A DNA stretch of 27,425 nt, taken from positions 1 to 27,425 of IMG/VR virus record IMGVR_UViG_3300043449_000196, one strand, 5' to 3'. A program made the position numbers and the translations under genes. Numbering within the stretch: position 1 is the stretch's first letter; every line of letters begins with the position of its first letter. The DNA is from a virus. The notes beneath the pieces are model-generated. The model did not search any database. It saw nothing but the letters and a program-made list of their open reading frames with translations, and was not told the origin of the DNA. Below, one piece after another: positions 1,097-27,425 of the stretch.

Positions 1097-4000
1097 ATGG
1101 CTGATGTCGAATCCAATATTAATATTAATATTGATGCGTCTCAAGCTCTAGCCAATTTAAGGGCTCTGCAAAGAGAGATCTCAGCCTTTCATACATCAAT
1201 GGCAAAGGGTGGTGCTGCTGCACAAGCAGCATCAAATAATCTTGCCAATAATCTTGTAAATCAGATTAATGCAACTGGTAAGTTCTCAGCTCAATTTACT
1301 AATGTTGCTTCAACTACAGAGGCATTTACAACTGCCCTAGAAAAGAATCAGTTTACTCTTCGTGAGTACTTTAGATATACTGGTGCTGCTACAAAAACAT
1401 TTGGCAAGATGTTTGCCCAAGAGTTTGAAACAATTAGCACAGTCACACGTGAACGTGTAAAAGATTTACAGACACAATACATCAAGCTTGGTAAAGATGC
1501 CAATGGTGCAATTCAGGCAATTAAGGTTAGACCGCTTGCACTTGACATGGAAGATCTTGGCACCAAGACACAGATGGCTGCTCAAAGAACACAGATTCTT
1601 AATCAGCTTCTTCAGCAAGGTTCTACAAATCTTCTAAACTTTGGTAAGAATACGCAGTGGGCTGGTCGTCAGCTCATGGTTGGTTTTACAATTCCACTTA
1701 TGATGTTTGGTTCTCAAGCAGCCAAGGCATTCTCCGATGTTGAAACTCAGATGATTAGATTTAAGAGAGTTTATGGAGACCTTCAAACTTCTTCTTCAGA
1801 TGCAATGGCGATGTCTGAGGATATTCGAAAGCTTGCTTCTGACTATACAAAGTATGGCATTGCAGTAGCAGATACGATTAAACTTGCTGCAGATGCAGCT
1901 GCAACTGGTAAGCAAGGTGCAGAACTTATGGAGCAGGTTGCATCAGCAACAAAGCTTGCAGTTCTTGGCGGTATTGATCAGCAACAGGCTTTGGAAACAA
2001 CCATTTCACTTACTAATGCTTTTGGTATTGCAGCAGAAGATCTAGCAAAGAAAACAAACTTCCTTAACGCAGTTGAAAACCAAACTGTCACATCTATTGA
2101 TGACCTTACAACTGCAATTCCTAAAGCTGCACCAGTTATTCAGCAACTTGGTGGTAGCGTAGAAGACCTGACATTCTTCCTTACAGCTATGCGTGAGGGT
2201 GGTGTAAATGCAGCAGAAGGTGCTAACGCACTTAAGTCTGGTCTTGCATCTATGATTAACCCAACAAAGGCAGCATCAGAATTCCTTGGTAGTTTTGGTA
2301 TTAACATCAAGGGACTAGTAGAAGCTAACAAGGGTGATCTAAAGGGTACTGTTATTGGATTTGCAGAAGCACTTGATAAGCTAGACCCACTAAACCGTGC
2401 ACAGGCTATTGAAAAGCTATTTGGTAAGTTCCAGTTTGCACGTATGTCTACATTGTTCCAGAACGTTATTGCAGAAGGTTCTCAAGCAAACAAGGTCCTT
2501 GAGTTGTCAAACGCAACAGCAGAAGAACTTGCAATTCTTTCTGAACGAGAAATGAAGACAATGGAGAATTCTCCACTTTACAAGTTTAAGAAAGCAATTG
2601 AAGACCTAAAGAATACTCTAGTTCCCATTGGTGAACAATTCCTAAAAGCGATCACACCAGTTGTTCAGTTTATTGGTGGAATACTAGAAAAGTTTAATGG
2701 ACTTAGTGATGGTGCTAAGAAGTTTGTTGTAACCTTAACTGCAATTCTTGCAGGTATTGGACCAGTAGCACTTATGACATTTGGTCTTCTTGCTAACGGT
2801 GTCGCTAACATTATTAAGCTATTTACAGCAGTTAAGAGAGTATTTAATGGTGCAGGTGGTGCATCTCAGGACCTTGGCTCACAAACACAGTTTATGACAC
2901 AGGCACAGATGGAAGCAGCTTCTGCAGCTTCTTCTCTTGAGCAGGCTCACGCAGCACTGAAGCAAACATTTACTTCTGAAGCTAATGCTGTTGACATGCT
3001 TACAGCTGCATACCAAAGAGCAATTACAGCACAGCGTGGATTTTCTGGTGGACCAGTTCCGAATACAAGATCAACCAAGCCAAAGAATTTTGCAAGTGGT
3101 GGTGTTGTTGTAACTGGTCCTGGTGGTCCAAAGGATGATGCAATCCCAGCAAACCTATCAAATGGTGAGGTTGTACTTTCTGTAGATACAGTAAATAAAA
3201 ACCCTGGAGTTGTTGCTGCACTTCTTACTGGAAGAAGAATTAATGTTCCAGGATTTGCAAATGGTTCAAAGTCTGTTGCAACAGGATTTGGATATAGCCA
3301 AGGACACTTCTCTGGCTACCAGTCAGCAACTGGACAACAACTTTTGGATATGGCAAAGAATGATGCAGACCTTGCTGCAATTAAGCAGAGACTAGCATCA
3401 CAAGCAAAGCTTCTTTCAGAAATTTCTGGAAACGTAGTTAAGTATGAAGACATGCTCACACACGAATTCCAAGTTTATGACAACAGAGTAGTTGGTCAGT
3501 CAATGGCTCTGAATACAATGCTTGGTCAGTCAGGAGCAAAGGGTGGAGCTGCCCCTGCTGATATGGTTCAGGAAGAGTATGCAGGCCAAAGAGGCCAGGC
3601 ACATGGTATGGCTGCAAACTACATGGAAAGAGCTGGAGTAGATCCAGAGAAAATTAAGTCTACAATGGTAGACCTAGCGGACGAGGTAGATGCAGGTATT
3701 CAGGATTTCATTACTAAGACTGGAAAGGCAGCCAAGGATGTAAAGATTTCTGGCGATGACCTTGACAGAATTATGCAGAATGCATATAGCAAGGTAGCAT
3801 CTAGAAACCAAGAATTGGCAACTGCCTATGGTGAGATGTCAGAAATTTCTGGTATTGCTTCTGTACAGAAGACAACTTCAGGTTCAAACAACAGACTTTC
3901 ACTATCACGCATGCGTGAGTGGTACAAGAGACAAACAACCAGAGACGCTAATTATGATGCTGGCGTTCAGTACTCTGAAAACCCAGACAAGCCTTATTTG

Positions 4001-7000
4001 GCAAAGATTGCAAAGAGACAATTTGCTAGCGGTACTTATGAAACTGCAAGACAGGTTAGAGACCAAGACCCACAGGCATTTAAGGAACTTCTTCAGGAGA
4101 AGGATTCTGCAAAGCGTCTAGCAATGCTTAAGGCATCAGCAAAGCGTCTAGGGATCAAGTTTGTTGAGTCTGCTTCAGATGGATTTGCTGATGGAGCAAA
4201 TAAGGGCCTAGAGGCTAAGTCACCATCTAAGAAAGCTGAGAAGGCTGGTAAGAATGGTGCAGATGGATTTATTAAGGGTGCAAAGTCAGGTGCTGAGGAA
4301 TCAACTCAGGCTGGACGTGAACAAGCAAGAAGAACTAACCAGGGTGTAGAGGCAGAGCAGGCAGCTGCAAGAGCAGCTGGTAAGAAGGTTGGAGATGCTG
4401 CAGCACAAGGTGTTGCTTCAGCTGGTGGCGGACGTGGACCAAATATAAATCCAACATTAATGGATAGATTTGATCAATCAAGACTTGGTTCTAAGTTTAA
4501 TAGTTCAAAGATGGGTCGTAGACTCAATGCAAGAATGGCTTTCTCTGATGAAAGCTTTGGTGCAGATGCTCCACAAAACAGGACAAAGGCATTAGTTGGA
4601 AAAGCTACTGGAATTGGTATGGGTGTTACATCCGCACTTGCAGTAGCATCAGCAATCCCTGGTCCAGTTGGAGAGACAGCACAAAAAGCATTGCCTATTG
4701 CAGGTGCTGTTACATCTATCCTTCCTATGCTTACTTCCCCTGTTGGTGCTGCAGTAGTTGCAGTTGGTGCTTTGGTGGCTGCTACCTATGCACAGAAGAA
4801 AGCATTTGATGATGCTCAAAATTCAGTATTAGATTTTAGTGAAAAGGTTGGTGCATCAACATCAGCAATTGAAGGTTTTAGTAAATTTGCAGGAACTGTT
4901 TCAGCAACAGAAATTATGCGTAAGCGTAGAGAAGCTGGAATTAACCCATTCCAAATTCAAACTGGAAAAACTACCTGGGGACAGGCTTTTGTTGGTAGCG
5001 AAGAAGGCAAGGGAATGCTTTCTTCTGTTAAACAAAATATTAAGCAAAATGGTTCAGCATCAGCAAGCTCTTCTATAGTTGCACAAGCTGCTTCAGCAGT
5101 TATGACTGGTGCAATGTCAGCACAGCAGGCTAGAAGCTATGTTGCTGCAATTGGAGAGCAACTTGGAGATTCATCTTTCTCAATTAAGGCAAATGCTCAG
5201 CTGATTACACTGCTTGGTCCAAATGGGGAGAACGTTCTTAAGGATGGAATGTCTATCCGTACAAAGCTAATTGAGGATCAGAGATCTAAGTCTGATGTTG
5301 CCATGAAGGGACTTAAGAAGGCAAGTGGCTGGACTATGGGAGATGTTGGAAACACAGCTCTTGGTATTGGTGGTGGAGCTGCAGCAGGTGCAGCAGCTGG
5401 AGCTATCGTTGGATCTGCTGTCCCAATTATTGGTACTGCTGTTGGTGCTATTGGTGGTGCCATTGTTGGTGCAATTGCAGGTGGAATATTCCAACAAAGA
5501 GATAGGCAAAAGAGAATTGGTGCTTCTTCAGCAGCAGCTATTGCAATGCAAAAGCAGGAGCTTGAAGTAGAGCAACAAATGCTTGACTCCCTTGACCAAG
5601 AGTATGAAAAGAAATATGCTAATCTTATGGCTGCTGGAAAGCAGGCAGAGGCAGAAAAACTTACAAATCAATACCTAACAGATAGACAGGGACTTCTTGA
5701 TCAACAGGCAGAAACTGTTCAAGCTATATCTACAAACTTTAAGGGTTCTAGCGAAGATGTTCAGAATGCACTTACTTCTGGTGCAGAAAAGGCTATAACT
5801 AAAAAATACAAGGGTACAGTTCAGGAAGACTTAGTTCCACTAGCACTTCAAAATATTAATGATTCTAGCATGACTAAAGAACAAAAGTATGTCATTAAAA
5901 TGGAAATGGCCTCTGGCAATATTGATCCTATGAGAATGATTTCTATTATGGAAACATTTGGAGATGACCAGAAGTCAATCGATAAAATGATGACAATTAT
6001 TACCAAGTTTGGTGGAACAACTGGCTCTCAGACACAGCAAGTGGTTGACCTATTTGATGGTAATAAGACTATTCAGAAATCAATTGTCGCTAAGGTAGAG
6101 GCTGCAAAGACATCTGCTGATGCACAAAAGATTTTGACTATGTGGTCAGCAGTTGGTCAGGGTACTGCAAGATCTCCAGAACTTAAGGTAGTAGCAAACT
6201 ACATTGAAAAGAATCCAGCAGTACAAAAGAAGCTAACAGAAATCATTGATGGAATTACAAAGCAAAAGGGTAAGTTTGATTTAACTATTGCTACTAAGAT
6301 TCTTGGTGCAGACTCAGTTGCCATGAAGGCACTTAGAGAAAACTGGGACTACTTCTCAAAGCTAACAGATAAAGAACAGCAGATCTACATGCAAGAGCTT
6401 GCTGTTATTTCTCAGAAGGTAGTTTCAAATAAGGATCCATTGGTGCAGGCATGGCTTAAGACACCAGAGGGTACTCCTTATGCAGTCAAGACAGATGCAG
6501 AGCAGCTATCTGGATACCTCAATTACGAGGCATACACAGTAACAAAGGCTGCTGGTAATATTGAATATAAGGCACCAGGACCTGGTGGTGGCGGTGGTGG
6601 CGGTGGCCCACAAGCATCTGCCATTGACGGACTAACTAAAGATCTCCGTGACGTTCAGAAGAATCAAATTGTTCCAAAGGTTGGCTGGGATGCTAATATG
6701 AAGATTCTTAGAGGCCTATTCTCAGGTAAAGATGGCAAGGGTAACGCAAAGAGAGAGATTACTCTATATAGTGGTCTTCAAAATGATATGCGTAAGCTTG
6801 GTGCTGGAGAAGATGTTATTCAGCTAATTGCTGGTATGGACCCTGCTGAATTTGAAAAGAGAAAGAAGTCTCTATTTAACTTTGACAATAATGGAAATAT
6901 TAAGTCATTCAAGGATGACCTAGTTACTATTGGCGAAGCAATGAGATCTATTCAGCTTGGTAAATTTATGGATCAGCAACAAGCATCTGCCAAGATGACA

Positions 7001-8779
7001 GGATACCAAACATCAGCTCTTGCAAAACTTAAGAATGCTGGTGTAGATACTGCTACAGCATACGCAATGGTTGCAGACCAAGCAACAGCATCTGCAATTG
7101 CTAACTCAAAGCTAAGCCCTGAAAAGCTTCAACAAATGGCTAATGCTGCTAAGAAGGCTGCAGATGCTATGCTTGAGTTTAATACAAGAACAAACCTTGC
7201 AAGTTCTGTACAGGAATTCAATGATAAGAAGGCTCTTCTTCTAAAGCTTGGTGCACAGGCAAAGAACTTTACACAAGAACAAATGACTGAAATTCTTAAT
7301 AATAAGGATCTTCAAACAATGATTCTTCACCCAGAATTTAATCAAACAGAATTTAACGAAAAGCTTAAGCAAGTTGCAGAAGCAGCTAATGTCGAAATTG
7401 CAATTAAGTCACTGACAGTAGAAGGTCTTACAGACATGTTTAATACTGGATTTAACAATGCAATGGCAGAAATTAATGCTAAAGAGCAAAAGATTCAGAT
7501 TCAGTTTGAGAATGTTACTAAGGGTGACAACTCAATCATTAAGTCTGCAGAGAATCAGATTGCAGGAATTAACTACCAGGTTGGACAGTGGAATGCACAG
7601 CTTAAGGGAATTGAAGACCAAGAAAAGGTAATTAATGAGTCTTACGATAAGCGTAAGGAAGCACTAAATACTATTGCTCAAATGAATGAGCGTATTTCCA
7701 ATCAGCAAAAGGGTCAGCTAGGTCTTGCCCAAGCACTTGCTTCTGGAGATATGGCACAGGCAGCTAGAGCAGCACTTGACATGAGATCACAGGCTGCTGG
7801 ATATGCAATACAAGATCAACAAGCAGCACTTGAAGAATCTAGAAAAGATGCTCTTGGTGGGGTAAGAAGTGACAAGGGTTATTCTAGAGTAGAAATTGAA
7901 ACACAGGTTAAAAACCTTAACGATCAAATCTTTAAGATCCAACAACAGCAATTGATTCCAGCACAGGAAAGAGTAAGACTTGCTACTATTGAAAGAGATA
8001 GACAGCTTGAACTTGTAACAGCTGGTGGCTTAACTAAGCAGCAGTGGAATGAGATTAAGAACAATATTGATCTTGCGTATATGAGTTCTGGAAAGTATCA
8101 ACAGTCAATTTCTATTGCAAAGGATTCAGTTAAAAAGATTCTTGACTACTGGAATTCAGTCCCAAAGACATACGAAACTCTTTATACAATTACAACTAAG
8201 TATGCTGGAGCAGGTGCACCTTTGGCTGGTGTTCAGTCTTCAACCAATAATGGTAAGACTGAAGCAGAAATTCAAAAAGCTGCTGCAAATGTTCAGAAAG
8301 CAAAAGATGATATAGCAACAGCAAACAAGCTATACAGTGTTCCAGGAATGACAAGCGTTGCAATCGCAATGACAAGTGCTGCAAATAAGGTTATTGCTGC
8401 AAATGGATATAACTCAGGTGGATCAGTTGATGGAGTTGGAAACTATGACAATGTCCCAGCAATGCTTACACCAGGAGAGTTTGTTGTAAATAGAAATTCT
8501 GTTGGAAAGTATGGTCGTGGAATGCTTAAGGCAATCAACGCTGGGACCTATAGCGAACCATCAATCCCAATGCTTTCTGGCATGGACCCAATTCCTACTG
8601 CAGATATTTCAAGAGGGGCATCAGTTGTTCAGTCATCAAACTCCAATTCAGTGTATAATTATACTCTAACAGTTAATGCTAGAACTGACTCAAATGCAAA
8701 TGAGATTGCTCAAACAGTTATGGCTAAGCTAAGAAATATGGGAGAAAACAGCCCAACTATGAGAGGTGTTAGAAGATAA
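1097..8779 (+). CDS. Tape measure protein
   Basis: Sets tail length and passes through the tail tube during DNA entry. At 2560 residues it is very large; about 1.5 angstroms per residue gives a tail near 380 nm. Residues ~215-570 match the phage minor-tail/TP901-1 tape measure core, ending in a hydrophobic stretch at ~541-570. Two copies of a GG-x-D-IPA-L-GE-VV type motif lie at ~668-695 and ~2440-2464. Residues ~1020-1060 carry the SPSK/GADGF pattern common in tape measures. Hydrophobic Gly/Ala-rich segments at ~1165-1235 and ~1423-1466 look able to insert in membrane. Eight glycines at 1830-1837 form a hinge. Residues ~780-1015 form a region I do not recognise. The start has AAAGAGGTG 7 bases upstream; the ATG at 1093 is out of frame and stops after three codons. 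Confidence 0.96.
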   Translation: MADVESNININIDASQALANLRALQREISAFHTSMAKGGAAAQAASNNLANNLVNQINATGKFSAQFTNVASTTEAFTTALEKNQFTLREYFRYTGAATKTFGKMFAQEFETISTVTRERVKDLQTQYIKLGKDANGAIQAIKVRPLALDMEDLGTKTQMAAQRTQILNQLLQQGSTNLLNFGKNTQWAGRQLMVGFTIPLMMFGSQAAKAFSDVETQMIRFKRVYGDLQTSSSDAMAMSEDIRKLASDYTKYGIAVADTIKLAADAAATGKQGAELMEQVASATKLAVLGGIDQQQALETTISLTNAFGIAAEDLAKKTNFLNAVENQTVTSIDDLTTAIPKAAPVIQQLGGSVEDLTFFLTAMREGGVNAAEGANALKSGLASMINPTKAASEFLGSFGINIKGLVEANKGDLKGTVIGFAEALDKLDPLNRAQAIEKLFGKFQFARMSTLFQNVIAEGSQANKVLELSNATAEELAILSEREMKTMENSPLYKFKKAIEDLKNTLVPIGEQFLKAITPVVQFIGGILEKFNGLSDGAKKFVVTLTAILAGIGPVALMTFGLLANGVANIIKLFTAVKRVFNGAGGASQDLGSQTQFMTQAQMEAASAASSLEQAHAALKQTFTSEANAVDMLTAAYQRAITAQRGFSGGPVPNTRSTKPKNFASGGVVVTGPGGPKDDAIPANLSNGEVVLSVDTVNKNPGVVAALLTGRRINVPGFANGSKSVATGFGYSQGHFSGYQSATGQQLLDMAKNDADLAAIKQRLASQAKLLSEISGNVVKYEDMLTHEFQVYDNRVVGQSMALNTMLGQSGAKGGAAPADMVQEEYAGQRGQAHGMAANYMERAGVDPEKIKSTMVDLADEVDAGIQDFITKTGKAAKDVKISGDDLDRIMQNAYSKVASRNQELATAYGEMSEISGIASVQKTTSGSNNRLSLSRMREWYKRQTTRDANYDAGVQYSENPDKPYLAKIAKRQFASGTYETARQVRDQDPQAFKELLQEKDSAKRLAMLKASAKRLGIKFVESASDGFADGANKGLEAKSPSKKAEKAGKNGADGFIKGAKSGAEESTQAGREQARRTNQGVEAEQAAARAAGKKVGDAAAQGVASAGGGRGPNINPTLMDRFDQSRLGSKFNSSKMGRRLNARMAFSDESFGADAPQNRTKALVGKATGIGMGVTSALAVASAIPGPVGETAQKALPIAGAVTSILPMLTSPVGAAVVAVGALVAATYAQKKAFDDAQNSVLDFSEKVGASTSAIEGFSKFAGTVSATEIMRKRREAGINPFQIQTGKTTWGQAFVGSEEGKGMLSSVKQNIKQNGSASASSSIVAQAASAVMTGAMSAQQARSYVAAIGEQLGDSSFSIKANAQLITLLGPNGENVLKDGMSIRTKLIEDQRSKSDVAMKGLKKASGWTMGDVGNTALGIGGGAAAGAAAGAIVGSAVPIIGTAVGAIGGAIVGAIAGGIFQQRDRQKRIGASSAAAIAMQKQELEVEQQMLDSLDQEYEKKYANLMAAGKQAEAEKLTNQYLTDRQGLLDQQAETVQAISTNFKGSSEDVQNALTSGAEKAITKKYKGTVQEDLVPLALQNINDSSMTKEQKYVIKMEMASGNIDPMRMISIMETFGDDQKSIDKMMTIITKFGGTTGSQTQQVVDLFDGNKTIQKSIVAKVEAAKTSADAQKILTMWSAVGQGTARSPELKVVANYIEKNPAVQKKLTEIIDGITKQKGKFDLTIATKILGADSVAMKALRENWDYFSKLTDKEQQIYMQELAVISQKVVSNKDPLVQAWLKTPEGTPYAVKTDAEQLSGYLNYEAYTVTKAAGNIEYKAPGPGGGGGGGGPQASAIDGLTKDLRDVQKNQIVPKVGWDANMKILRGLFSGKDGKGNAKREITLYSGLQNDMRKLGAGEDVIQLIAGMDPAEFEKRKKSLFNFDNNGNIKSFKDDLVTIGEAMRSIQLGKFMDQQQASAKMTGYQTSALAKLKNAGVDTATAYAMVADQATASAIANSKLSPEKLQQMANAAKKAADAMLEFNTRTNLASSVQEFNDKKALLLKLGAQAKNFTQEQMTEILNNKDLQTMILHPEFNQTEFNEKLKQVAEAANVEIAIKSLTVEGLTDMFNTGFNNAMAEINAKEQKIQIQFENVTKGDNSIIKSAENQIAGINYQVGQWNAQLKGIEDQEKVINESYDKRKEALNTIAQMNERISNQQKGQLGLAQALASGDMAQAARAALDMRSQAAGYAIQDQQAALEESRKDALGGVRSDKGYSRVEIETQVKNLNDQIFKIQQQQLIPAQERVRLATIERDRQLELVTAGGLTKQQWNEIKNNIDLAYMSSGKYQQSISIAKDSVKKILDYWNSVPKTYETLYTITTKYAGAGAPLAGVQSSTNNGKTEAEIQKAAANVQKAKDDIATANKLYSVPGMTSVAIAMTSAANKVIAANGYNSGGSVDGVGNYDNVPAMLTPGEFVVNRNSVGKYGRGMLKAINAGTYSEPSIPMLSGMDPIPTADISRGASVVQSSNSNSVYNYTLTVNARTDSNANEIAQTVMAKLRNMGENSPTMRGVRR

Positions 8780-20965: not shown

Positions 20966-23900
20966 ATGAGTTACGCTGGTCTACACGTCCACACACACTA
21001 CTCGCTATTTGACGGAATTGCCACACCACAGGAATATGTGGATCGTGCCGTATCGCTGGGAATGCCAGCAATTGCAATCACAGACCATGGATCTCTATCT
21101 GGTCACCGTGAAATGTATCGTGCTGCCAAAGAGGCAGGAATCAAGCCAATCCTAGGTATCGAAGGGTACATCACTAAGGATCGTTTTCACCATGAAGACA
21201 AGAAGGCCAAGAACGACCCACTTGACCTTAACTATAATCACCTAATTATTATTGCCAAGAACTCTAAGGGGTTGCAGAACCTTAATAAGCTAAATGAGAT
21301 TGCTTGGACTGAAGGATTCTATAAGAAGCCACGTATTGACTGGGATGTACTTGAAGAATATAAGGATGGGCTAATCATTACATCTGGATGTCTTTCTGGA
21401 GTTTTAGCAAAGGCTATTGAAGCAAATGAGTTTGCATATGCAAAAGAGCATATCCAAAAGTGTAAGTCAATCTTTGGAGACGACTACTACATTGAAGTAA
21501 TGCCACATAACCCACCAGAGATTAACAAGGCTCTGCTAGACCTAGCAGATGAGTTTGGCGTGAAGCCAGTTGTAACTCCAGACTGCCACCACTCTGACCC
21601 ATCACAGAAAGAGATTCAAGAACTAAAGCTGATTCTTAACTCTTACTCTAATAAGGTTGAGAAGGGTGCAACATATGATGGTTCTAAGAAGTATGATAAC
21701 CTAATGGACCGTCTTGACTACCTGTACGGTGCTGAACGTCAGATGTCATTTAATAAGTTTGAGATTCACCTACTATCAGATGAAGAGATGCACAATGCCA
21801 TGAAGGCACAAGGCATTGATCGTGAAGATATGTATGAAGCAACTCGTGAGATTGTTGACAAGGTAGAAGACTATAAGATTAAAGATCACCAAGACTTGCT
21901 ACCTGTACAGTATCAGAATCCTAATAAAGAACTTCGTGAACTTGCAATTGCAGGTCTTAAGGAGCGAGGTATTGAAACTGAAGAATATCTTGCAAGACTA
22001 GAAGAAGAGCTTGAAGTAATCGAAGCAAAGAACTTTGGCCCATACTTTCTTGTTGTACGCTCCATGATTGCATGGGCTAAGAAGGAAGGCATCATGGTAG
22101 GTCCTGGTCGTGGTTCTGCTGCAGGATCTCTTCTTTGCTACTCTTTGGGTATTACAGATATTGATCCTATTGAACATGGACTATTGTTCTTCCGTTTTAT
22201 TAACCCAGAACGTAATGACTTCCCAGATATCGATACAGATATTCAGGACTCACGCCGTGAAGAGGTAAAGGATTATCTGGTTCGTCAGTATAAGCACGTA
22301 GCATCTATTGCAACATTCTTGCAGTTCCGTGGAAAGGGTATGGTTCGTGATATTGCACGTACATTGAACGTACCTCTCCCAGATGTAAATAAGGTGCTTA
22401 AGGTAGTAGATGACTGGGACGATTATTGTTCATCAAAGCAGTCAGCTTGGTTCCGTGAAAAGTATCCAGAGATTGAAACATATGGAGAACTTCTTCGTGG
22501 TCGTATTCGTGGAACAGGTATTCACGCTGCTGGTGTTGTTACATCTAAGCAGCCAATCTTTAAGTTTGCTCCACTAGAGACTCGCACATCTCCAGGAAAC
22601 AAAGAGCGTATCCCTGTTGTTGCGGTAGACATGGAAGAAGCAGAGCGTATTGGTCTAATTAAGATTGACGCACTTGGTCTAAAGACACTTTCAGTACTGC
22701 GTGATACATTAGATATTATTGAAGAACGTCATGATAGTAAGATTGATTTGCTATCTATTGATATGAATGATGCAAATGTTTATCGTATGCTCTCTGATGG
22801 ATACACCAAGGGTGTGTTCCAGTGTGAAGCTACGCCATATACCAACTTGCTAGTTAAGATGGGTGTAAAGAATCTTGCAGAGCTGTCTGCATCTAATGCT
22901 CTGGTTCGTCCAGGTGCTGCCAATACTATTGGTAAGGACTACATTGCACGTAAGCAGGGTCGCCAGAACATCGACTACAAGCACCAAGTAATGAAATCAT
23001 TTACTGCAGAAACATATGGATGTATCTTGTATCAGGAACAGGTTATGCAGGCCTGTACAGAACTTGGCGGTATGACTATGGCTGAGGCAGATAAGGTGCG
23101 TAAGATTATTGGTAAGAAGAAGGATGCTAAAGAGTTTGATCAGTTTAAGGATCAGTTCGTTAAGGGTGCATCACGATTCCTATCACCAAACGTTGCTGAA
23201 GAACTATGGACAGACTTTGAGGCTCACGCAGGGTACTCATTCAACAAGTCACACGCAGTAGCATATTCAACGTTATCATACTGGACTGCATGGCTTAAGT
23301 ATCACTATCCACTTGAGTTTATGTACTCACTACTTAAAAACGAAAAGGATAAAGATGCTAGAACTGAATATCTTATTGAGGCAAAAAGAATGGGGATTAG
23401 CATTAAGCTACCTCATGTTAATGATTCAGATATTGACTTTAAAATTGAGGGCAAAGGTATTCGCTTTGGGCTATCAGGTATTAAGTATATTTCTGACAAG
23501 ATCGCTGAAAAGTACATTTCAGCAAGACCTTTCAATTCGCATGCTGAACTTGAGGAGTTTACTTTTACTAAGGGAAACGGAGTTAACTCTCGTGCTCTTC
23601 AGTCATTACGAACGATTGGTGCAGCTACATTCTCAGATAATCCTAGGAATGACGAAGAGATTAAAGCAAACCTATACGAGTATCTAAACCTTCCAGAGTT
23701 TAATATTACGGTTCCACAGCATTACCACGCATTTATTAATGATGTGGAAGAGTTCGAAGAAAAAGGCTCTTTCATTCTAATGGGTATGGCCAAGGGGCTA
23801 AAGCGAGGTAAGGGTTGGAGTCGTGTAGAGATTCTAGACAAGACAGGAAGCGTAGGTATATTCGATGATGAACAGTCTACAATCGAAACTGGAAAGACAT

Positions 23901-24241
23901 ATCTTATTTTGGCTAGCGATAATCGCATTGCTGAGGCCATCCAGATTGATGAGATTGGTAAGGTTGATTCGGCACTTGTAAAGTATCTAAACTACAAGCA
24001 ATTGCCATATAAAGATGAAGAGCTATTTGTTGTATCTTTTAAGCCACGTATTACAAAGGCTGGAAAGAAGATGGCAACACTTACTTTGGCAGATGCAGGA
24101 AGAGAGTTACATCCTGTAACAGTATTTCCTACAGCATTTGCTAAGGCATACATGAAGATTCAAGAAGGTTCTGCATACAAGTTTGACTTGGGCAAAACTA
24201 AAGACGGTACAGTGATTATGGAGGACGTACATGCAATTTGA
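20966..24241 (+). CDS. dnaE: DNA polymerase III alpha subunit (DnaE-like)
   Basis: The phage replicative polymerase (family C), 1091 residues, slightly shorter than the roughly 1160 of bacterial DnaE. The N-terminal PHP domain keeps all nine metal ligands expected of an active exonuclease: H7, H9, D16, H41, E66, H92, C142, D206 and H208. The palm motif P-D-I-D-T-D is at 420-425 (D423 and D425 as metal ligands) and the third catalytic aspartate is D568 in KIDALGL. A helix-hairpin-helix-like segment near 870-890 and a C-terminal OB fold at ~1005-1091 (KPRITKAGKKMATLTLADA) follow. No separate proofreading exonuclease or clamp gene is visible here. It starts after the terminator and overlaps the MazG-like gene by 11 bases. 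Confidence 0.96.
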   Translation: MSYAGLHVHTHYSLFDGIATPQEYVDRAVSLGMPAIAITDHGSLSGHREMYRAAKEAGIKPILGIEGYITKDRFHHEDKKAKNDPLDLNYNHLIIIAKNSKGLQNLNKLNEIAWTEGFYKKPRIDWDVLEEYKDGLIITSGCLSGVLAKAIEANEFAYAKEHIQKCKSIFGDDYYIEVMPHNPPEINKALLDLADEFGVKPVVTPDCHHSDPSQKEIQELKLILNSYSNKVEKGATYDGSKKYDNLMDRLDYLYGAERQMSFNKFEIHLLSDEEMHNAMKAQGIDREDMYEATREIVDKVEDYKIKDHQDLLPVQYQNPNKELRELAIAGLKERGIETEEYLARLEEELEVIEAKNFGPYFLVVRSMIAWAKKEGIMVGPGRGSAAGSLLCYSLGITDIDPIEHGLLFFRFINPERNDFPDIDTDIQDSRREEVKDYLVRQYKHVASIATFLQFRGKGMVRDIARTLNVPLPDVNKVLKVVDDWDDYCSSKQSAWFREKYPEIETYGELLRGRIRGTGIHAAGVVTSKQPIFKFAPLETRTSPGNKERIPVVAVDMEEAERIGLIKIDALGLKTLSVLRDTLDIIEERHDSKIDLLSIDMNDANVYRMLSDGYTKGVFQCEATPYTNLLVKMGVKNLAELSASNALVRPGAANTIGKDYIARKQGRQNIDYKHQVMKSFTAETYGCILYQEQVMQACTELGGMTMAEADKVRKIIGKKKDAKEFDQFKDQFVKGASRFLSPNVAEELWTDFEAHAGYSFNKSHAVAYSTLSYWTAWLKYHYPLEFMYSLLKNEKDKDARTEYLIEAKRMGISIKLPHVNDSDIDFKIEGKGIRFGLSGIKYISDKIAEKYISARPFNSHAELEEFTFTKGNGVNSRALQSLRTIGAATFSDNPRNDEEIKANLYEYLNLPEFNITVPQHYHAFINDVEEFEEKGSFILMGMAKGLKRGKGWSRVEILDKTGSVGIFDDEQSTIETGKTYLILASDNRIAEAIQIDEIGKVDSALVKYLNYKQLPYKDEELFVVSFKPRITKAGKKMATLTLADAGRELHPVTVFPTAFAKAYMKIQEGSAYKFDLGKTKDGTVIMEDVHAI

Positions 24242-24551
24242 TGATTGGGCAGAAGAGCTACACAAGACTGCCGTAGAAAAGGGCTTTTGGCCTGAAGATG
24301 TAGATGACATTTTTGTTACAAAGCAGCTAATGATGATTGTGTCAGAAGCTGTAGAAGTAATGGAAGCTATCCGTAAGGATAAGGGAGAAGATCAGATCGC
24401 TGATGAGATGGCAGATATCCTTATTAGAACACTAGACCTTTATGCAGGTCTTGTAGAAAACGGGTATACTAGAACTTCCCTAGATTATGCTATGGAAAAG
24501 AAAACAAACTTTAATAAGACTAGACCAGAAAGGCACGGAGTTAGATTCTAA
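24231..24551 (+). CDS. MazG-like nucleotide pyrophosphohydrolase
   Basis: Probably hydrolyses nucleoside triphosphates to monophosphates, either to clean abnormal dNTPs or to alter host signalling nucleotides. The 106-residue protein has the all-alpha NTP-PPase metal motif E39-x-x-E42 and E59-x-x-D62, with helices around it. It is single-domain, about 100 residues, as in phage MazG and dUTPase-like members. Start choice: GGAGGA at 24220-24225 lies 5 bases upstream, inside the dnaE gene. It sits between the polymerase and NrdH-redoxin, which fits a nucleotide-pool role. The true substrate cannot be read from sequence. Confidence 0.82.
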   Translation: MQFDDWAEELHKTAVEKGFWPEDVDDIFVTKQLMMIVSEAVEVMEAIRKDKGEDQIADEMADILIRTLDLYAGLVENGYTRTSLDYAMEKKTNFNKTRPERHGVRF

Positions 24552-24781
24552 TGATTAATGTATATACAAACGAAAATTGCACACAGTGTGAGCAGACCAA
24601 GAAGTTCCTTGATAAGGTAGGGCTTGAATATAATGTTAAGCCATTTGCCGAACACCCAGAAGAGCTAAAGCGTTTTGTTGAGATGGGATTCAAGGCAGCA
24701 CCCATTGTTGAGACTGATACAGATGTTTGGTCTGGATTCAAGATTGACAAGCTTAATGGATTGGCTGAGGCTTCACTATAA
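24551..24781 (+). CDS. nrdH: NrdH-type glutaredoxin
   Basis: A small thiol redoxin of 76 residues that normally gives electrons to class Ib ribonucleotide reductase. The redox pair is C10-T-Q-C13, with Gln in the third place as in NrdH proteins. A conserved Pro (AAPIVE, residues 56-61) follows as the cis-Pro loop, and the WSGF motif near residue 66 is the C-terminal signature of NrdH. It begins on TAATG of the MazG-like gene. No reductase gene is in this window, so the partner is either elsewhere in the phage or the host enzyme. Confidence 0.88.
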   Translation: MINVYTNENCTQCEQTKKFLDKVGLEYNVKPFAEHPEELKRFVEMGFKAAPIVETDTDVWSGFKIDKLNGLAEASL

Positions 24782-25794
24782 TGACTGTAACTGTAGAAGA
24801 TGTATTAGCACAACTTAATCCTAAACTACGTAAAGGCCTTATGATTGGAGATGCAGTGCCAGATACTGAGTACGCTGCAACACCAAGTTTTGGCCTAAAT
24901 CGTGCACTTAATGGTGGACTACCATATGGTCGTCAGGTATTGATCTGGGGATCAAAGTCGTCTGCCAAGTCATCAGTATGCCTGCAGACAATTGCATTGG
25001 CACAGAAGGAAGGCAAGGTCTGTGCTTGGATTGATGCTGAGATGTCCTATGACAGAACTTGGGCTGAACGCCTTGGGGTAGATACCTCAAAACTTATTGT
25101 GTCTCAGGCACGTACTATCAATGAGATGGTTGACATTGGAACAAACCTAATGCAAGCAGGAGTAGACCTAATTGTAGTTGACTCAATCACATCTCTACTA
25201 CCAGCAATCTATTTTGAAAAAGATTCTGATGAATTAAAGCAGCTTGAGAATACTAAGCAGATTGGTGCAGAAGCAAGAGACTTTAGTAATGCAGTTAAGA
25301 TGCTTAACTATGCTAATAATAAGGTAAAGCCAACGTTGCTTATTCTTATTAGCCAGTCTCGCAATAATATTAGTGCTATGTATACTAGCCAGCAACCAAC
25401 TGGTGGTCAGTCAGTAAAGTTCTATTCATCAACTGTAATTAAGCTGTTCTCGTCAGAGTCAGACAATCAAGCATTGAAGGGAAAAATTAATGTTGGAGAT
25501 AAACTCATTGAAGAAAAGATTGGTAGAAAAGTTCGCTGGGACCTACAGTTCTCTAAGACTTCTCCTGCTTTCCAGGGTGGCGAGTATGACTTCTATTTTA
25601 GAGGCGATGATGTTGGTGTTGACAGTATTGGCGATCTTGTTGACACAGCAGAGTCTCTAGGTATTGTTTCTAGAACTGGTGCATGGTATCAGCTAGAGGA
25701 TGGCACCAAGATCCAGGGTAGAGATGCATTTGTAGCCAGAGTAAAGGAAGACCTAGACCTACAGGATTCTATTAAGGCAAAGCTTAATGGCTAG
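24781..25794 (+). CDS. recA: RecA-like recombinase
   Basis: Strand-exchange ATPase for recombination and repair of phage DNA, 337 residues, close to the length of bacterial RecA. Walker A is at 57-64 and reads GSKSSAKS, with alanine where RecA has the glycine before the lysine. Walker B is LIVVDS, followed by the usual SLLP segment. Much of the central core and the ILISQSR motif are recognisable. The N-terminal helix and C-terminal region are more divergent. It starts on TAATG of nrdH and overlaps the zinc-finger gene by 8 bases. Arginine codons are mostly CGN in the first half and only AGA in the last third. Confidence 0.92.
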   Translation: MTVTVEDVLAQLNPKLRKGLMIGDAVPDTEYAATPSFGLNRALNGGLPYGRQVLIWGSKSSAKSSVCLQTIALAQKEGKVCAWIDAEMSYDRTWAERLGVDTSKLIVSQARTINEMVDIGTNLMQAGVDLIVVDSITSLLPAIYFEKDSDELKQLENTKQIGAEARDFSNAVKMLNYANNKVKPTLLILISQSRNNISAMYTSQQPTGGQSVKFYSSTVIKLFSSESDNQALKGKINVGDKLIEEKIGRKVRWDLQFSKTSPAFQGGEYDFYFRGDDVGVDSIGDLVDTAESLGIVSRTGAWYQLEDGTKIQGRDAFVARVKEDLDLQDSIKAKLNG

Positions 25795-25966
25795 ATATTC
25801 TGTTTATCCAGGTGAATTTATTTGTCACACCTGCAAAGAACTCGTTAAGAGTTTAAGGCTTTATCCAGACAATCACGAAGTAAGTTGGATGTGCAGTAAG
25901 AAGCATCTTACAAATGTGGTATTATATAAGAAGCGAACGAAAAAGGACTATGAGCGAGAAGAATGA
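25787..25966 (+). CDS. 59-residue zinc-finger protein
   Basis: A short gene that a 60-residue length cut-off would miss. It begins at ATG 25787 inside the end of recA (8-base overlap) and stops with TGA at 25964-25966, overlapping the nuclease gene by 17 bases. Residues C13-x-x-C16 and C36-x3-H40 can bind one zinc ion, in a fold too small for more than a single finger. The C-terminus is a charged, Lys/Arg/Glu-rich helix ending DYEREE. The gene is sandwiched between a recombinase and a nuclease in one overlapping run, so a nucleic-acid-binding or protein-bridging role in recombination is plausible but inferred. The ribosome site is poor; coupling to recA is likely. Confidence 0.82.
   Translation: MARYSVYPGEFICHTCKELVKSLRLYPDNHEVSWMCSKKHLTNVVLYKKRTKKDYEREE
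25917..25925 (+). promoter_or_regulatory. Possible extended -10 box (TGG-TATTAT)
   Basis: TGGTATTAT lies inside the zinc-finger gene, 24 bases before the ATG at 25950, with AAAAGGA at 25941-25947. It resembles the other extended -10 sites with one mismatch and could give extra transcription of the nuclease and oxygenase genes. Confidence 0.35.
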
Positions 25967-26243
25967 AAGCAAGCGTATTGGTGCCAAACAGCACAAAAAC
26001 TCTGGTAGAAATACCCACAAAGGCGATGCAACCTGGAAGAACTTTACAGTTGACTTCAAAGAAGTCAGTAAATCTTTTACAATCAATAAGGATGTCTGGG
26101 CAAAAGCAAGCACTGACGCTGTTCGCAACGGCAACGATCCAGCTATTTTTATTGTACTGGGGGACCAAGGCACTAGAACACGTCTTGCTGTTATTGAGCT
26201 GTCAATGCTAGAACAAATCATAGAGGAATCCGAAAATGACTAA
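25950..26243 (+). CDS. PD-(D/E)XK nuclease, Holliday-resolvase-like
   Basis: A 97-residue basic protein with the core of the PD-(D/E)XK nuclease fold: SGR at 18-20, KGD with D26, then V-D35-F-K37 as the D-x-K catalytic pair, followed by SFTI and an alpha helix. The order SG, KGD, (E/D)xK and S-[FY]-x-[IL] matches phage Holliday-junction resolvases of the Hjc/Hjr type. Such an enzyme would trim branched DNA after RecA-driven recombination. It is shorter than most resolvases (usually 110-150), and the N-terminal helix with its metal-binding Glu is only weakly visible (E6). I start it at ATG 25950 rather than the longer upstream reading because AAAAGGA lies just before it, although spacing is short. 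Confidence 0.62.
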   Translation: MSEKNESKRIGAKQHKNSGRNTHKGDATWKNFTVDFKEVSKSFTINKDVWAKASTDAVRNGNDPAIFIVLGDQGTRTRLAVIELSMLEQIIEESEND

Positions 26244-26799
26244 ACTACCAGCATATATAAAGTCTCTACTATCTAAAGATGAAGTTGATCAGGTTTGGAC
26301 TAAGTTGCAGGAACTTATGTCAGCTATGCCAAAGGATCCAGTTTTTGATGAGACAAATAATGATATTAATGTTCCGCAAGGTGTCAGATTTGGCAAAATC
26401 ATAAATGCCAATATGGGCAAGATATATTTCAATCTTAGTCCAGACTTCTTTACAGAATCAATTTTGAATAAACTTACAGCCATTGCAGAAGAGATTGAGC
26501 CTGGAGTAACATTTCAGTCTGCAACATATACAGAGTATTCCTCACAATATGGTAAGCCAACTCTTGGGGTTCACCAAGATAGGTTTGATATATTCTTGCT
26601 TATAGATCTACAGATTAACTCTAATACAACTTGGGAACTATCCGCAGATGGAGCTGACTATAAACTTGAAGATGGCGATGCAATTGCTCTACATGCAGGT
26701 AGTACAGATCATGGAAGACCTCACAAGGACTTTAAGGATGGAGAGGTTGTGTCAATGATCTTCCTAGACTTCTTGAGGCCAGGCACTATAAATGATTAA
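26236..26799 (+). CDS. 2-oxoglutarate/Fe(II)-dependent oxygenase, copy 1
   Basis: Probable dioxygenase of the double-stranded beta-helix (cupin-like) type, 187 residues. Iron ligands fit H113-x-D115 and distal H159, with R161 as the likely 2-oxoglutarate contact in an H-x-R motif. The barrel strands (FLLIDLQI, then DGDAIALHAG and VVSMIFLDF) surround these. The substrate is unknown: such phage enzymes can act on DNA bases, on proteins or on small molecules. It overlaps the nuclease gene by 8 bases and the second oxygenase by 8 bases; AGAGGA lies 8 bases before ATG. All four arginines use AGA or AGG. The fold assignment is by motif and by likeness to the next gene. Confidence 0.72.
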   Translation: MTKLPAYIKSLLSKDEVDQVWTKLQELMSAMPKDPVFDETNNDINVPQGVRFGKIINANMGKIYFNLSPDFFTESILNKLTAIAEEIEPGVTFQSATYTEYSSQYGKPTLGVHQDRFDIFLLIDLQINSNTTWELSADGADYKLEDGDAIALHAGSTDHGRPHKDFKDGEVVSMIFLDFLRPGTIND

Positions 26800-27358
26800 C
26801 AGAATAATTGAAATAGGTCTTTCAGATACGGATCTACAAAAAATTTATGAACACCTAGAGAATACACCAGAAGAGAAAAAATTTAGACATCCAAATTATG
26901 GACATATAGCCTACTTCTCATGGCTACCAGATCAGGTTGTAGACAAGATCAACAAGGTTATGGCAGATCAGTTTCCAGAAGATAGGCTAGAGCTAAGAGA
27001 ACTATCTTTTGCAAGGTATGACAATTCTGTGGGGGTAAAGCCACAGCTATATCCACATTTTGACAACCCATTCCAAGAGCAGAGATTCACCCTGGACATA
27101 CAGGTAAAGTCTACAATTGACTGGCCCATTGTTGTAGAGGGCAACGAATATGTTTTAAAAGATAACCAAGGACTAATGTTTAGCGGAACTCACCAGATCC
27201 ACTGGAGAGTGGATAAACCCTTTAAGGACTCCGATTTTGTTGAAATGATTTTTTGTCATTTTTCAAAGGTGGGGGAAGAAAAGATCTCAGATGATCATAG
27301 GAAAGCTATGCTGGAAAAAGAAGCAGAACTATTAAAGGTGTGGCAGTCCAAGCAGTAA
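26792..27358 (+). CDS. 2-oxoglutarate/Fe(II)-dependent oxygenase, copy 2
   Basis: A 188-residue paralogue of the preceding gene. H89-F-D91 and distal H137, with R139 in an H-W-R motif, align with H113/D115/H159/R161 of copy 1, and the final strand EMIFCHF aligns with SMIFLDF. The first ~85 residues are related but diverged, so the two enzymes may have different targets or may form a heterodimer. A highly charged helical tail of ~25 residues after the core is absent from copy 1. There is no good ribosome site, so translation likely couples to copy 1. All eight arginines use AGA or AGG. A promoter and a new gene follow. Confidence 0.74.
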   Translation: MINRIIEIGLSDTDLQKIYEHLENTPEEKKFRHPNYGHIAYFSWLPDQVVDKINKVMADQFPEDRLELRELSFARYDNSVGVKPQLYPHFDNPFQEQRFTLDIQVKSTIDWPIVVEGNEYVLKDNQGLMFSGTHQIHWRVDKPFKDSDFVEMIFCHFSKVGEEKISDDHRKAMLEKEAELLKVWQSKQ

Positions 27359-27372
27359 AACGATTTTTGTAC

Positions 27373-27390
27373 TATAATATATACAAGGAG
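27373..27390 (+). promoter_or_regulatory. Promoter (TATAAT) and ribosome binding site
   Basis: TATAAT at 27373-27378, with TG five bases before it rather than in the exact extended position, and AAGGAG at 27385-27390. It fills the 43-base gap after the oxygenase pair and drives the gene starting at 27402. No terminator hairpin is seen before it. Confidence 0.6.
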
Positions 27391-27401
27391 AAAACAAAAA
27401 A

Positions 27402-27425
27402 ATGGATAATGAAGTAAAAAGACAC
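27402..27425 (+). CDS. Start of a gene cut by the window end
   Basis: ATG at 27402 with AAGGAG 11 bases upstream opens a frame of eight codons (MDNEVKRH) before the sequence ends. Product unknown. It is separated from the oxygenase pair by a promoter, so it begins a new transcription unit. Confidence 0.6.

Follow-up and report, generated by a model that had tools for sequence, protein, structure and literature searches.

The window analysed here is a 27.4-kb IMG/VR virus record (IMGVR_UViG_3300043449_000196, positions 1-27,425). Tail genes come first and are followed by a replication/recombination operon encoding DnaB, a DnaG-type primase, SSB, DNA polymerase III alpha, a MazG-like enzyme, a glutaredoxin, RecA/UvsX, Zn59, the resolvase Hjc and two small proteins, A and B (Table 1). 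The Hjc start is likely to be at 25950 (MSEKNESKR) rather than 25914, as judged on homologues. An earlier note on this DNA had described A and B as a tandem pair of diverged 2-oxoglutarate (2OG) oxygenases linked to polymerase, MazG-like enzyme, redoxin and recombinase genes, and these neighbours were confirmed. It had also stated that both genes follow the nuclease by 8-base overlaps. Both overlaps exist, but A overlaps the Hjc-like gene and B overlaps A. Among relatives, 140 of 252 tandem pairs are able to overlap.

Table 1. Features of the window and of related loci (L numbers).
Feature	Location	Strand	Basis or remark
Tape measure	window 1097-8779		tail region
DNA polymerase III alpha	window 20966..24241	+	PF07733, PF02811, PF17657
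MazG-like pyrophosphohydrolase	window 24231..24551	+	PF03819
Glutaredoxin-like protein	window 24551..24781	+	PF00462
RecA/UvsX recombinase	window 24781..25794	+	PF00154, E=4.6e-39
Zn59, zinc-ribbon-like, 59 aa	window 25787..25966	+	conserved between RecA and Hjc
Hjc, PHROG 'Holliday junction resolvase'	window 25950..26243	+	phrog_2002, E=6e-25; left slot border
Hjc/A overlap, 8 bp	window 26236..26243	+	
Paralogue A, 187 aa, predicted HxD...HxR 2OG-Fe(II) oxygenase	window 26236..26799	+	ORF, paralogy, AlphaFold2, Foldseek
A/B overlap, 8 bp	window 26792..26799	+	
Paralogue B, 188 aa, predicted HxD...HxR 2OG-Fe(II) oxygenase	window 26792..27358	+	ORF, AlphaFold2, Foldseek
AAGGAG, likely ribosome-binding site of C	window 27385..27390	+	sequence, inference
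Paralogue C, first 8 codons (MDNEVKRH), stopped by contig end	window 27402..27425	+	sequence; homologous loci
Complete C	L003 1932-2765; L007 254-1087		
x102	L003 2749-3057		
PF13640-type fourth oxygenase	L003 5892-6629; L007 4217-4957		
Didomain fusions	L175 7230-8564; L148 7320-8645; L155 4866-6134; L162 7320-8648; L156 1410-2678		
A-type + B-type domain fusion	L048 6812-8023		
Active + degenerate domain fusion	L182 2244-3446		
Late cassette	L030 5809-12525 (record G001)	-	conserved in array-positive phages; absent from array-negative ones examined
Marine 'ferrochelatases'	L196 7160-8276 (S-SM1); L347 3839-4609 (Mosig); L348 2878-3513; L349 3950-4558; L350 2965-4053; L351 3842-4432		

BLASTP shows A and B to be true paralogues (52.8 bits, E=1e-13, 30% identity across 147 aa), and both retain the H-x-D and H-x-R motifs that the earlier note had read in their ORFs (H113-Q-D115 and H159-G-R161 in A, HFD and HWR in B). 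However, they do not form a closed pair: a longer array begins with them, and the window breaks off after 24 bp of a third paralogue, C. Complete copies of C (about 277 aa, HLD...HWR) lie downstream of B at two homologous loci, L003 and L007. L007 lies in a 49-kb record, the end of which agrees with the C-terminal portion of B at 98.5%; for practical purposes this record may be used as the continuation of the window phage or of a very near relative. At both loci a fourth 2OG oxygenase, of the PF13640 type (245 aa), lies about 3 kb past the array and adjoins terminase genes.

Neither A nor B had an above-threshold match in Pfam or NCBIfam. PF13640 did not reach its gathering score with either protein, A matched only JmjC_2 below the cut-off and B matched nothing; searches of PDB sequences gave no credible match. 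The sole PHROGs match of B was to 'ferrochelatase' phrog_2954 (E=4e-5). The AlphaFold2 models (pLDDT 88.9 and pTM 0.85 for A, 93.3 and 0.88 for B) nevertheless predict a double-stranded beta-helix (DSBH) in both proteins, with many 2OG-oxygenase matches in Foldseek: P4H, PKHD and AlkB structures for A, ALKBH5, PHD2 and AspH for B, and NMAD-1, a bacterial P4H and ABH2 among the matches of the two models. HxD and HxR were invariant wherever covered (272-275 distinct sequences), and all sequences covering the motif had the facial triad HxD/E...H of the Fe(II)/2OG superfamily. Loss of the iron ligands in relatives, named in the earlier note as a ground for abandoning its reading, was looked for, and the ligands were invariant. 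The predicted fold and these ligands support the assignment of A and B as 2OG/Fe(II) oxygenases with an intact iron site.

The array family departs from the usual signature at the presumed 2OG-binding residue. An Arg two residues past the distal His is present in 113 of 113 non-redundant sequences, and the superfamily-typical basic residue at His+9 to +11 is absent as a rule: Lys or Arg occurs at +9 in 12%, at +10 in 4% and at +11 in 0%, the last position being acidic in 86%. By a loose regular expression, H-x8-11-R/K was found in 38 of 41 ordinary PF13640-type oxygenases of the same phages. The missing residue marks a variant and excludes nothing; other subfamilies anchor 2OG elsewhere. The Arg at His+2 may be the 2OG anchor instead. 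The 2OG-FeII_Oxy_3/P4H family (PF13640; P. putida P4H 4j25, S. baltica 3dkq) has in common with the array proteins the DSBH fold, the HxD...H triad and a similar N-terminal region, and distant homology was detected (hhalign E=1.5e-5), whereas A and B remain below the Pfam thresholds and the canonical H-x8-11-R/K gives way to the invariant Arg at H+2.

A pooled A/B/C profile proved too diverse for finding loci. Scans of IMG/VR gave relatives in the hundreds (173 C-like and 244 B-like). No relative turned up when the B and C profiles were run as patterns against 85,000 prokaryote genomes; a cellular source of the family was set aside on this result, although distant homologues could escape such patterns. 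The viral loci are metagenomic fragments with mechanical gene calls, and the structures are predicted ones. In a survey of gene neighbourhoods, as suggested in the earlier note, the oxygenases of about 190 loci occupy a slot between RecA and Cas4; the marine relatives described below lie beside tail-fibre genes. The order at the slot is RecA, Zn59, Hjc, the 2OG genes, x102, Cas4-like nuclease, Zn96, RuvC-like, HTH and terminase. The names 'Cas4', 'RuvC', 'Zn', 'HTH' and terminase were given by reading the sequences and do not come from library matches. The protein x102 is a strongly conserved 102-aa protein with no Pfam match, and it has at least 521 relatives in IMG/VR.

The number of tandem paralogues in the slot ranges from one to five. 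When loci were picked by the flanking x102, regardless of oxygenases, the array was present in 17 of 72 and absent from 55, and in these 55 the operon was otherwise complete. The array-less slot is empty or holds an exonuclease-like gene. Such a gene (cluster 31, about 202 aa) replaces or precedes the oxygenases between Hjc and x102 at L208, L211, L216, L217, L221 and other loci. In 14 of 15 array-negative records the family was absent elsewhere too. On a tree of Cas4, presence and absence of the array need 15 changes, of which at least 10 are forced by well supported branches. MazG and glutaredoxin genes are variably present near the slot, independently of the array. The array is thus an accessory cassette in one fixed slot and not a fixed member of the replication machinery, and an intrinsic role in replication finds no support in the x102-picked loci. 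The suggestion of the earlier note that two copies carry out successive oxidation steps fails as a general rule with a copy number of 0 to 5.

The cassette is also hypervariable, with fast turnover. Comparison of the window with L003 gives 99% identity for the RecA C-terminus and 94% for Hjc, but 63% for A and 56% for B; nucleotide identity drops from 92-99% to 56-78% across the two genes. L007 and L003 are 98% identical in x102, 99% in Cas4 and 90% in C. Across 103 pairs of loci whose Cas4 proteins are 92-99.9% identical, the best identity had a median of 78% in array genes and of 92-97% in the flanks (96-97% in RecA, x102 and TerL), and copy number differed in 42 of the 103; these pairs are not independent, and the zero values for Hjc among them stem from mis-called antisense ORFs.

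Two intact domains in one ORF were found in five records, with at least four distinct sequences. In addition, one ORF joins an A-type to a B-type domain, and in cyanophage ACG-2014f an HWR domain is fused to a PF13640 domain. Because such two-domain fusions occur naturally, neighbouring paralogues may act as functional partners. The heterodimer suggested in the earlier note is therefore plausible as a physical or functional partnership, but a heterodimer of exactly two is ruled out by the copy number. Double-DSBH prolyl hydroxylases of the OGFOD1/Tpa1 type have one active and one degenerate DSBH per chain. The ORF at L182 has a similar arrangement. However, it is the single such case here; most fusions have both sites intact, and no sequence match to these enzymes was found (OGFOD1 is treated in PMC4396695).

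The phrog_2954 match of B leads to marine phages. For the cyanophage and pelagiphage 'ferrochelatase', 150 records were matched, and most of the matches listed bear that name. The 'ferrochelatase' of S-SM1 was the first named viral Foldseek match to B (E=8e-9). Seven of these proteins, checked singly (176-256 aa and one 362-aa fusion), all had HxD...HWR, and none matched the ferrochelatase domain PF00762 at E<=1. Their E-values against the array HMM range from 1e-9 to 1e-17, whereas the adjacent ordinary 2OG oxygenases do not match it. Proteins of phrog_2954 (T4-like GC 615; S-SM1 SSM1_060/061, S-RSM4 SRSM4_132, Mosig_00059) resemble the array in HxD...HWR and in tandem 2OG clusters, but are about 30% identical or less, belong to marine T4-like phages and have as neighbours, in place of RecA and Cas4, genes for tail fibres, neck/head proteins and carbamoyltransferase. 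By sequence and model, they appear to be misnamed 2OG oxygenases of the array clade. Pelagiphage 'ferrochelatases' have been reported always to adjoin 2OG oxygenases (PMC9599517) and to be seasonal AMGs (PMC11561400). The simplest reading is that the published 'ferrochelatase' and adjacent 2OG genes are members of tandem oxygenase clusters. The AMG inferences of both studies rest on the 'ferrochelatase' label, and their haem or iron interpretation would change.

Several additional oxygenases of the PF13640 type are present in array-positive phages, as is a conserved late cassette, in which an unknown gene, two DUF6065-like genes, a glycosyltransferase and two 2OG genes are often joined by a carbamoyltransferase. 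At L030 it encodes a carbamoyltransferase, an SGNH-like protein, a pair of 2OG oxygenases of which one matches PF13640 and one has no Pfam match, a glycosyltransferase, two DUF6065-like proteins and an unassigned 231-aa protein. The cassette was found in 9 of 9 array-positive and 0 of 6 array-negative records (a small set), its family-specific glycosyltransferase in 20 of 25 against 0 of 15 (strong matches being counted in the latter) and the carbamoyltransferase in 16 of 25 against 0 of 6, many of the array-negative records being short. Among phylogenetically independent pairs for array and glycosyltransferase, four were supported, 3.4 agreed and none opposed (p about 0.125, not significant). 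A GT60 (Skp1-type hydroxyproline GlcNAc-transferase) identity is doubtful for this glycosyltransferase, since PF11397 matched 3 of 9 members, weakly, and GT2 matched 2.

We tentatively propose, at a little below an even chance, that an accessory fast-turnover cassette of phage-specific Fe(II)/2OG oxygenases, acting on polypeptides or glycans, begins with A, B and the truncated C. Fe(II) would be bound through HxD...H and 2OG held with the help of the Arg beside the distal His, and a substrate would be hydroxylated early in infection. The substrates might be polypeptides or their glycans, such as the fibre proteins of the virion or host proteins that vary from host to host; each paralogue might have its own site, and some might act as associated pairs. 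The hydroxyls could serve unmodified or be capped by the glycosyltransferase/carbamoyltransferase cassettes of the same phages. This reading is favoured over base modification because DNA-modification partners are missing, the oxygenases are acidic (their median pI is 5.2 and no net charge is above 0, against pI 8.5-9.2 for the basic nucleases of the operon), the late cassette is present and the marine relatives neighbour tail-fibre genes. However, RecA, SSB and Pol III alpha of the same operon are acidic as well, and the array belongs to the replication/recombination operon and not to the late fibre module. The co-occurrence with the cassette loses significance once phylogeny is handled, array-negative records are shorter, and AlkB-type nucleic-acid demethylases are as near structurally as protein hydroxylases. 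Collagen-like GXY repeats occur in array-positive and array-negative phages alike, and a collagen-like fibre substrate gained no support. A more specific version is clearly more doubtful: that these phage-only hydroxylases, with the 2OG-binding Arg moved beside the distal His, form diversified sets that mark virion fibres or host proteins, that phage enzymes then glycosylate or carbamoylate the hydroxyls, and that the marine 'ferrochelatases' are part of this system.

It is also possible, though rather unlikely, that the hydroxylases serve counter-defence, with a host defence component or phage nucleic acid as the target that they inactivate or modify and an arms race driving paralogue turnover. 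The accessory nature of the slot, its 0-5 copies, the 10 or more gains and losses forced by supported branches and the divergence of array genes beside nearly identical RecA, Hjc, x102 and TerL fit this idea. However, variable fibres could equally drive turnover, there is no known defence target, and homologues also lie in late clusters at the tail-fibre side of marine phages.

Base modification of phage DNA, as proposed in the earlier note, is less likely again. A base would be hydroxylated (for example the thymine methyl), perhaps stepwise, and restriction evaded. The surrounding polymerase, RecA, resolvase, nuclease and MazG genes fit this idea, and thymine oxidation is possible without a methyltransferase. 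As in Tet/JBP and phage base-hypermodification systems, a 2OG oxygenase is present in a phage, and the carbamoyltransferases of 16 of 25 array-positive records recall enzymes known to carbamoylate 5hmC (PMC8670742). However, these genes sit in a late glycan-like cassette, and the same study describes carbamoyltransferases unpaired with thymidylate synthase, flanked by glycosyltransferases or unrelated genes, on unmodified contigs. The proposal is weakened because DNA-modification partners are absent: C5-methylase (PF00145) was found in 0 of 40 records, thymidylate-synthase-type hydroxymethylase (PF00303) in 0 of 31 and Tet/JBP above the cut-off in 0 of 31 whole records, and A and B had no match to Tet/JBP PF12851. 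HMUDK_hel (PF18723) was found in 0 of 25, a weak result since the model was silent in controls too. Tet/JBP or 5mC oxidation was rejected on these absences. The acidity of the oxygenases and the complete polymerase operon at most x102-picked loci, with no array, also speak against the proposal.

Two further alternatives are improbable. The first is AlkB-like repair, in which phage DNA or RNA would be demethylated while replication proceeds. AlkB has basic residues at about distal His+17 and His+23. The top Foldseek matches include ALKBH5, NMAD-1, AlkB and ABH2, with a common DSBH fold and HxD...H (TM about 0.5-0.6), and the neighbourhood is one of recombination and repair. However, A and B do not match AlkB PF13532, Lys or Arg occurs at His+17 in 0 of 113 sequences (0%; 27% at His+23), the array proteins are acidic, and as many as five diverged copies are unlike a repair enzyme. 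The second, oxidation of a small molecule in the nucleotide pool or in 2OG/succinate or iron metabolism, would suit small, single-domain, acidic enzymes with MazG-like and glutaredoxin genes directly upstream, but these two genes vary around the slot independently of the array, and fused and multi-copy forms are atypical of metabolic enzymes.

2OG oxygenases as such are known; what is new is the HxD...HxR clade, phage-only and carried in an accessory slot of hypervariable content. Since WhiB was found in 24 of 31 records and whiB is an actinophage marker (PMC6802176, PMC10202952), the array-positive freshwater phages probably infect actinobacteria. A two-gene curiosity thus becomes a hypervariable cassette in many phages of abundant freshwater actinobacteria, with hosts assigned by WhiB, and its clear catalytic signature and natural fusions make its chemistry directly testable. 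Record G001 (L029-L031), as read from the sequence, has WhiB, ThyX-like, class II ribonucleotide reductase-like and sulfotransferase-like genes and several glycosyltransferase-like and nucleotide-sugar genes, WhiB alone having been checked. In a separate phage group (L020-L028), a lone B-type oxygenase is encoded outside the slot, next to another 2OG-like gene (cluster 29) and one that is WhiB-like.
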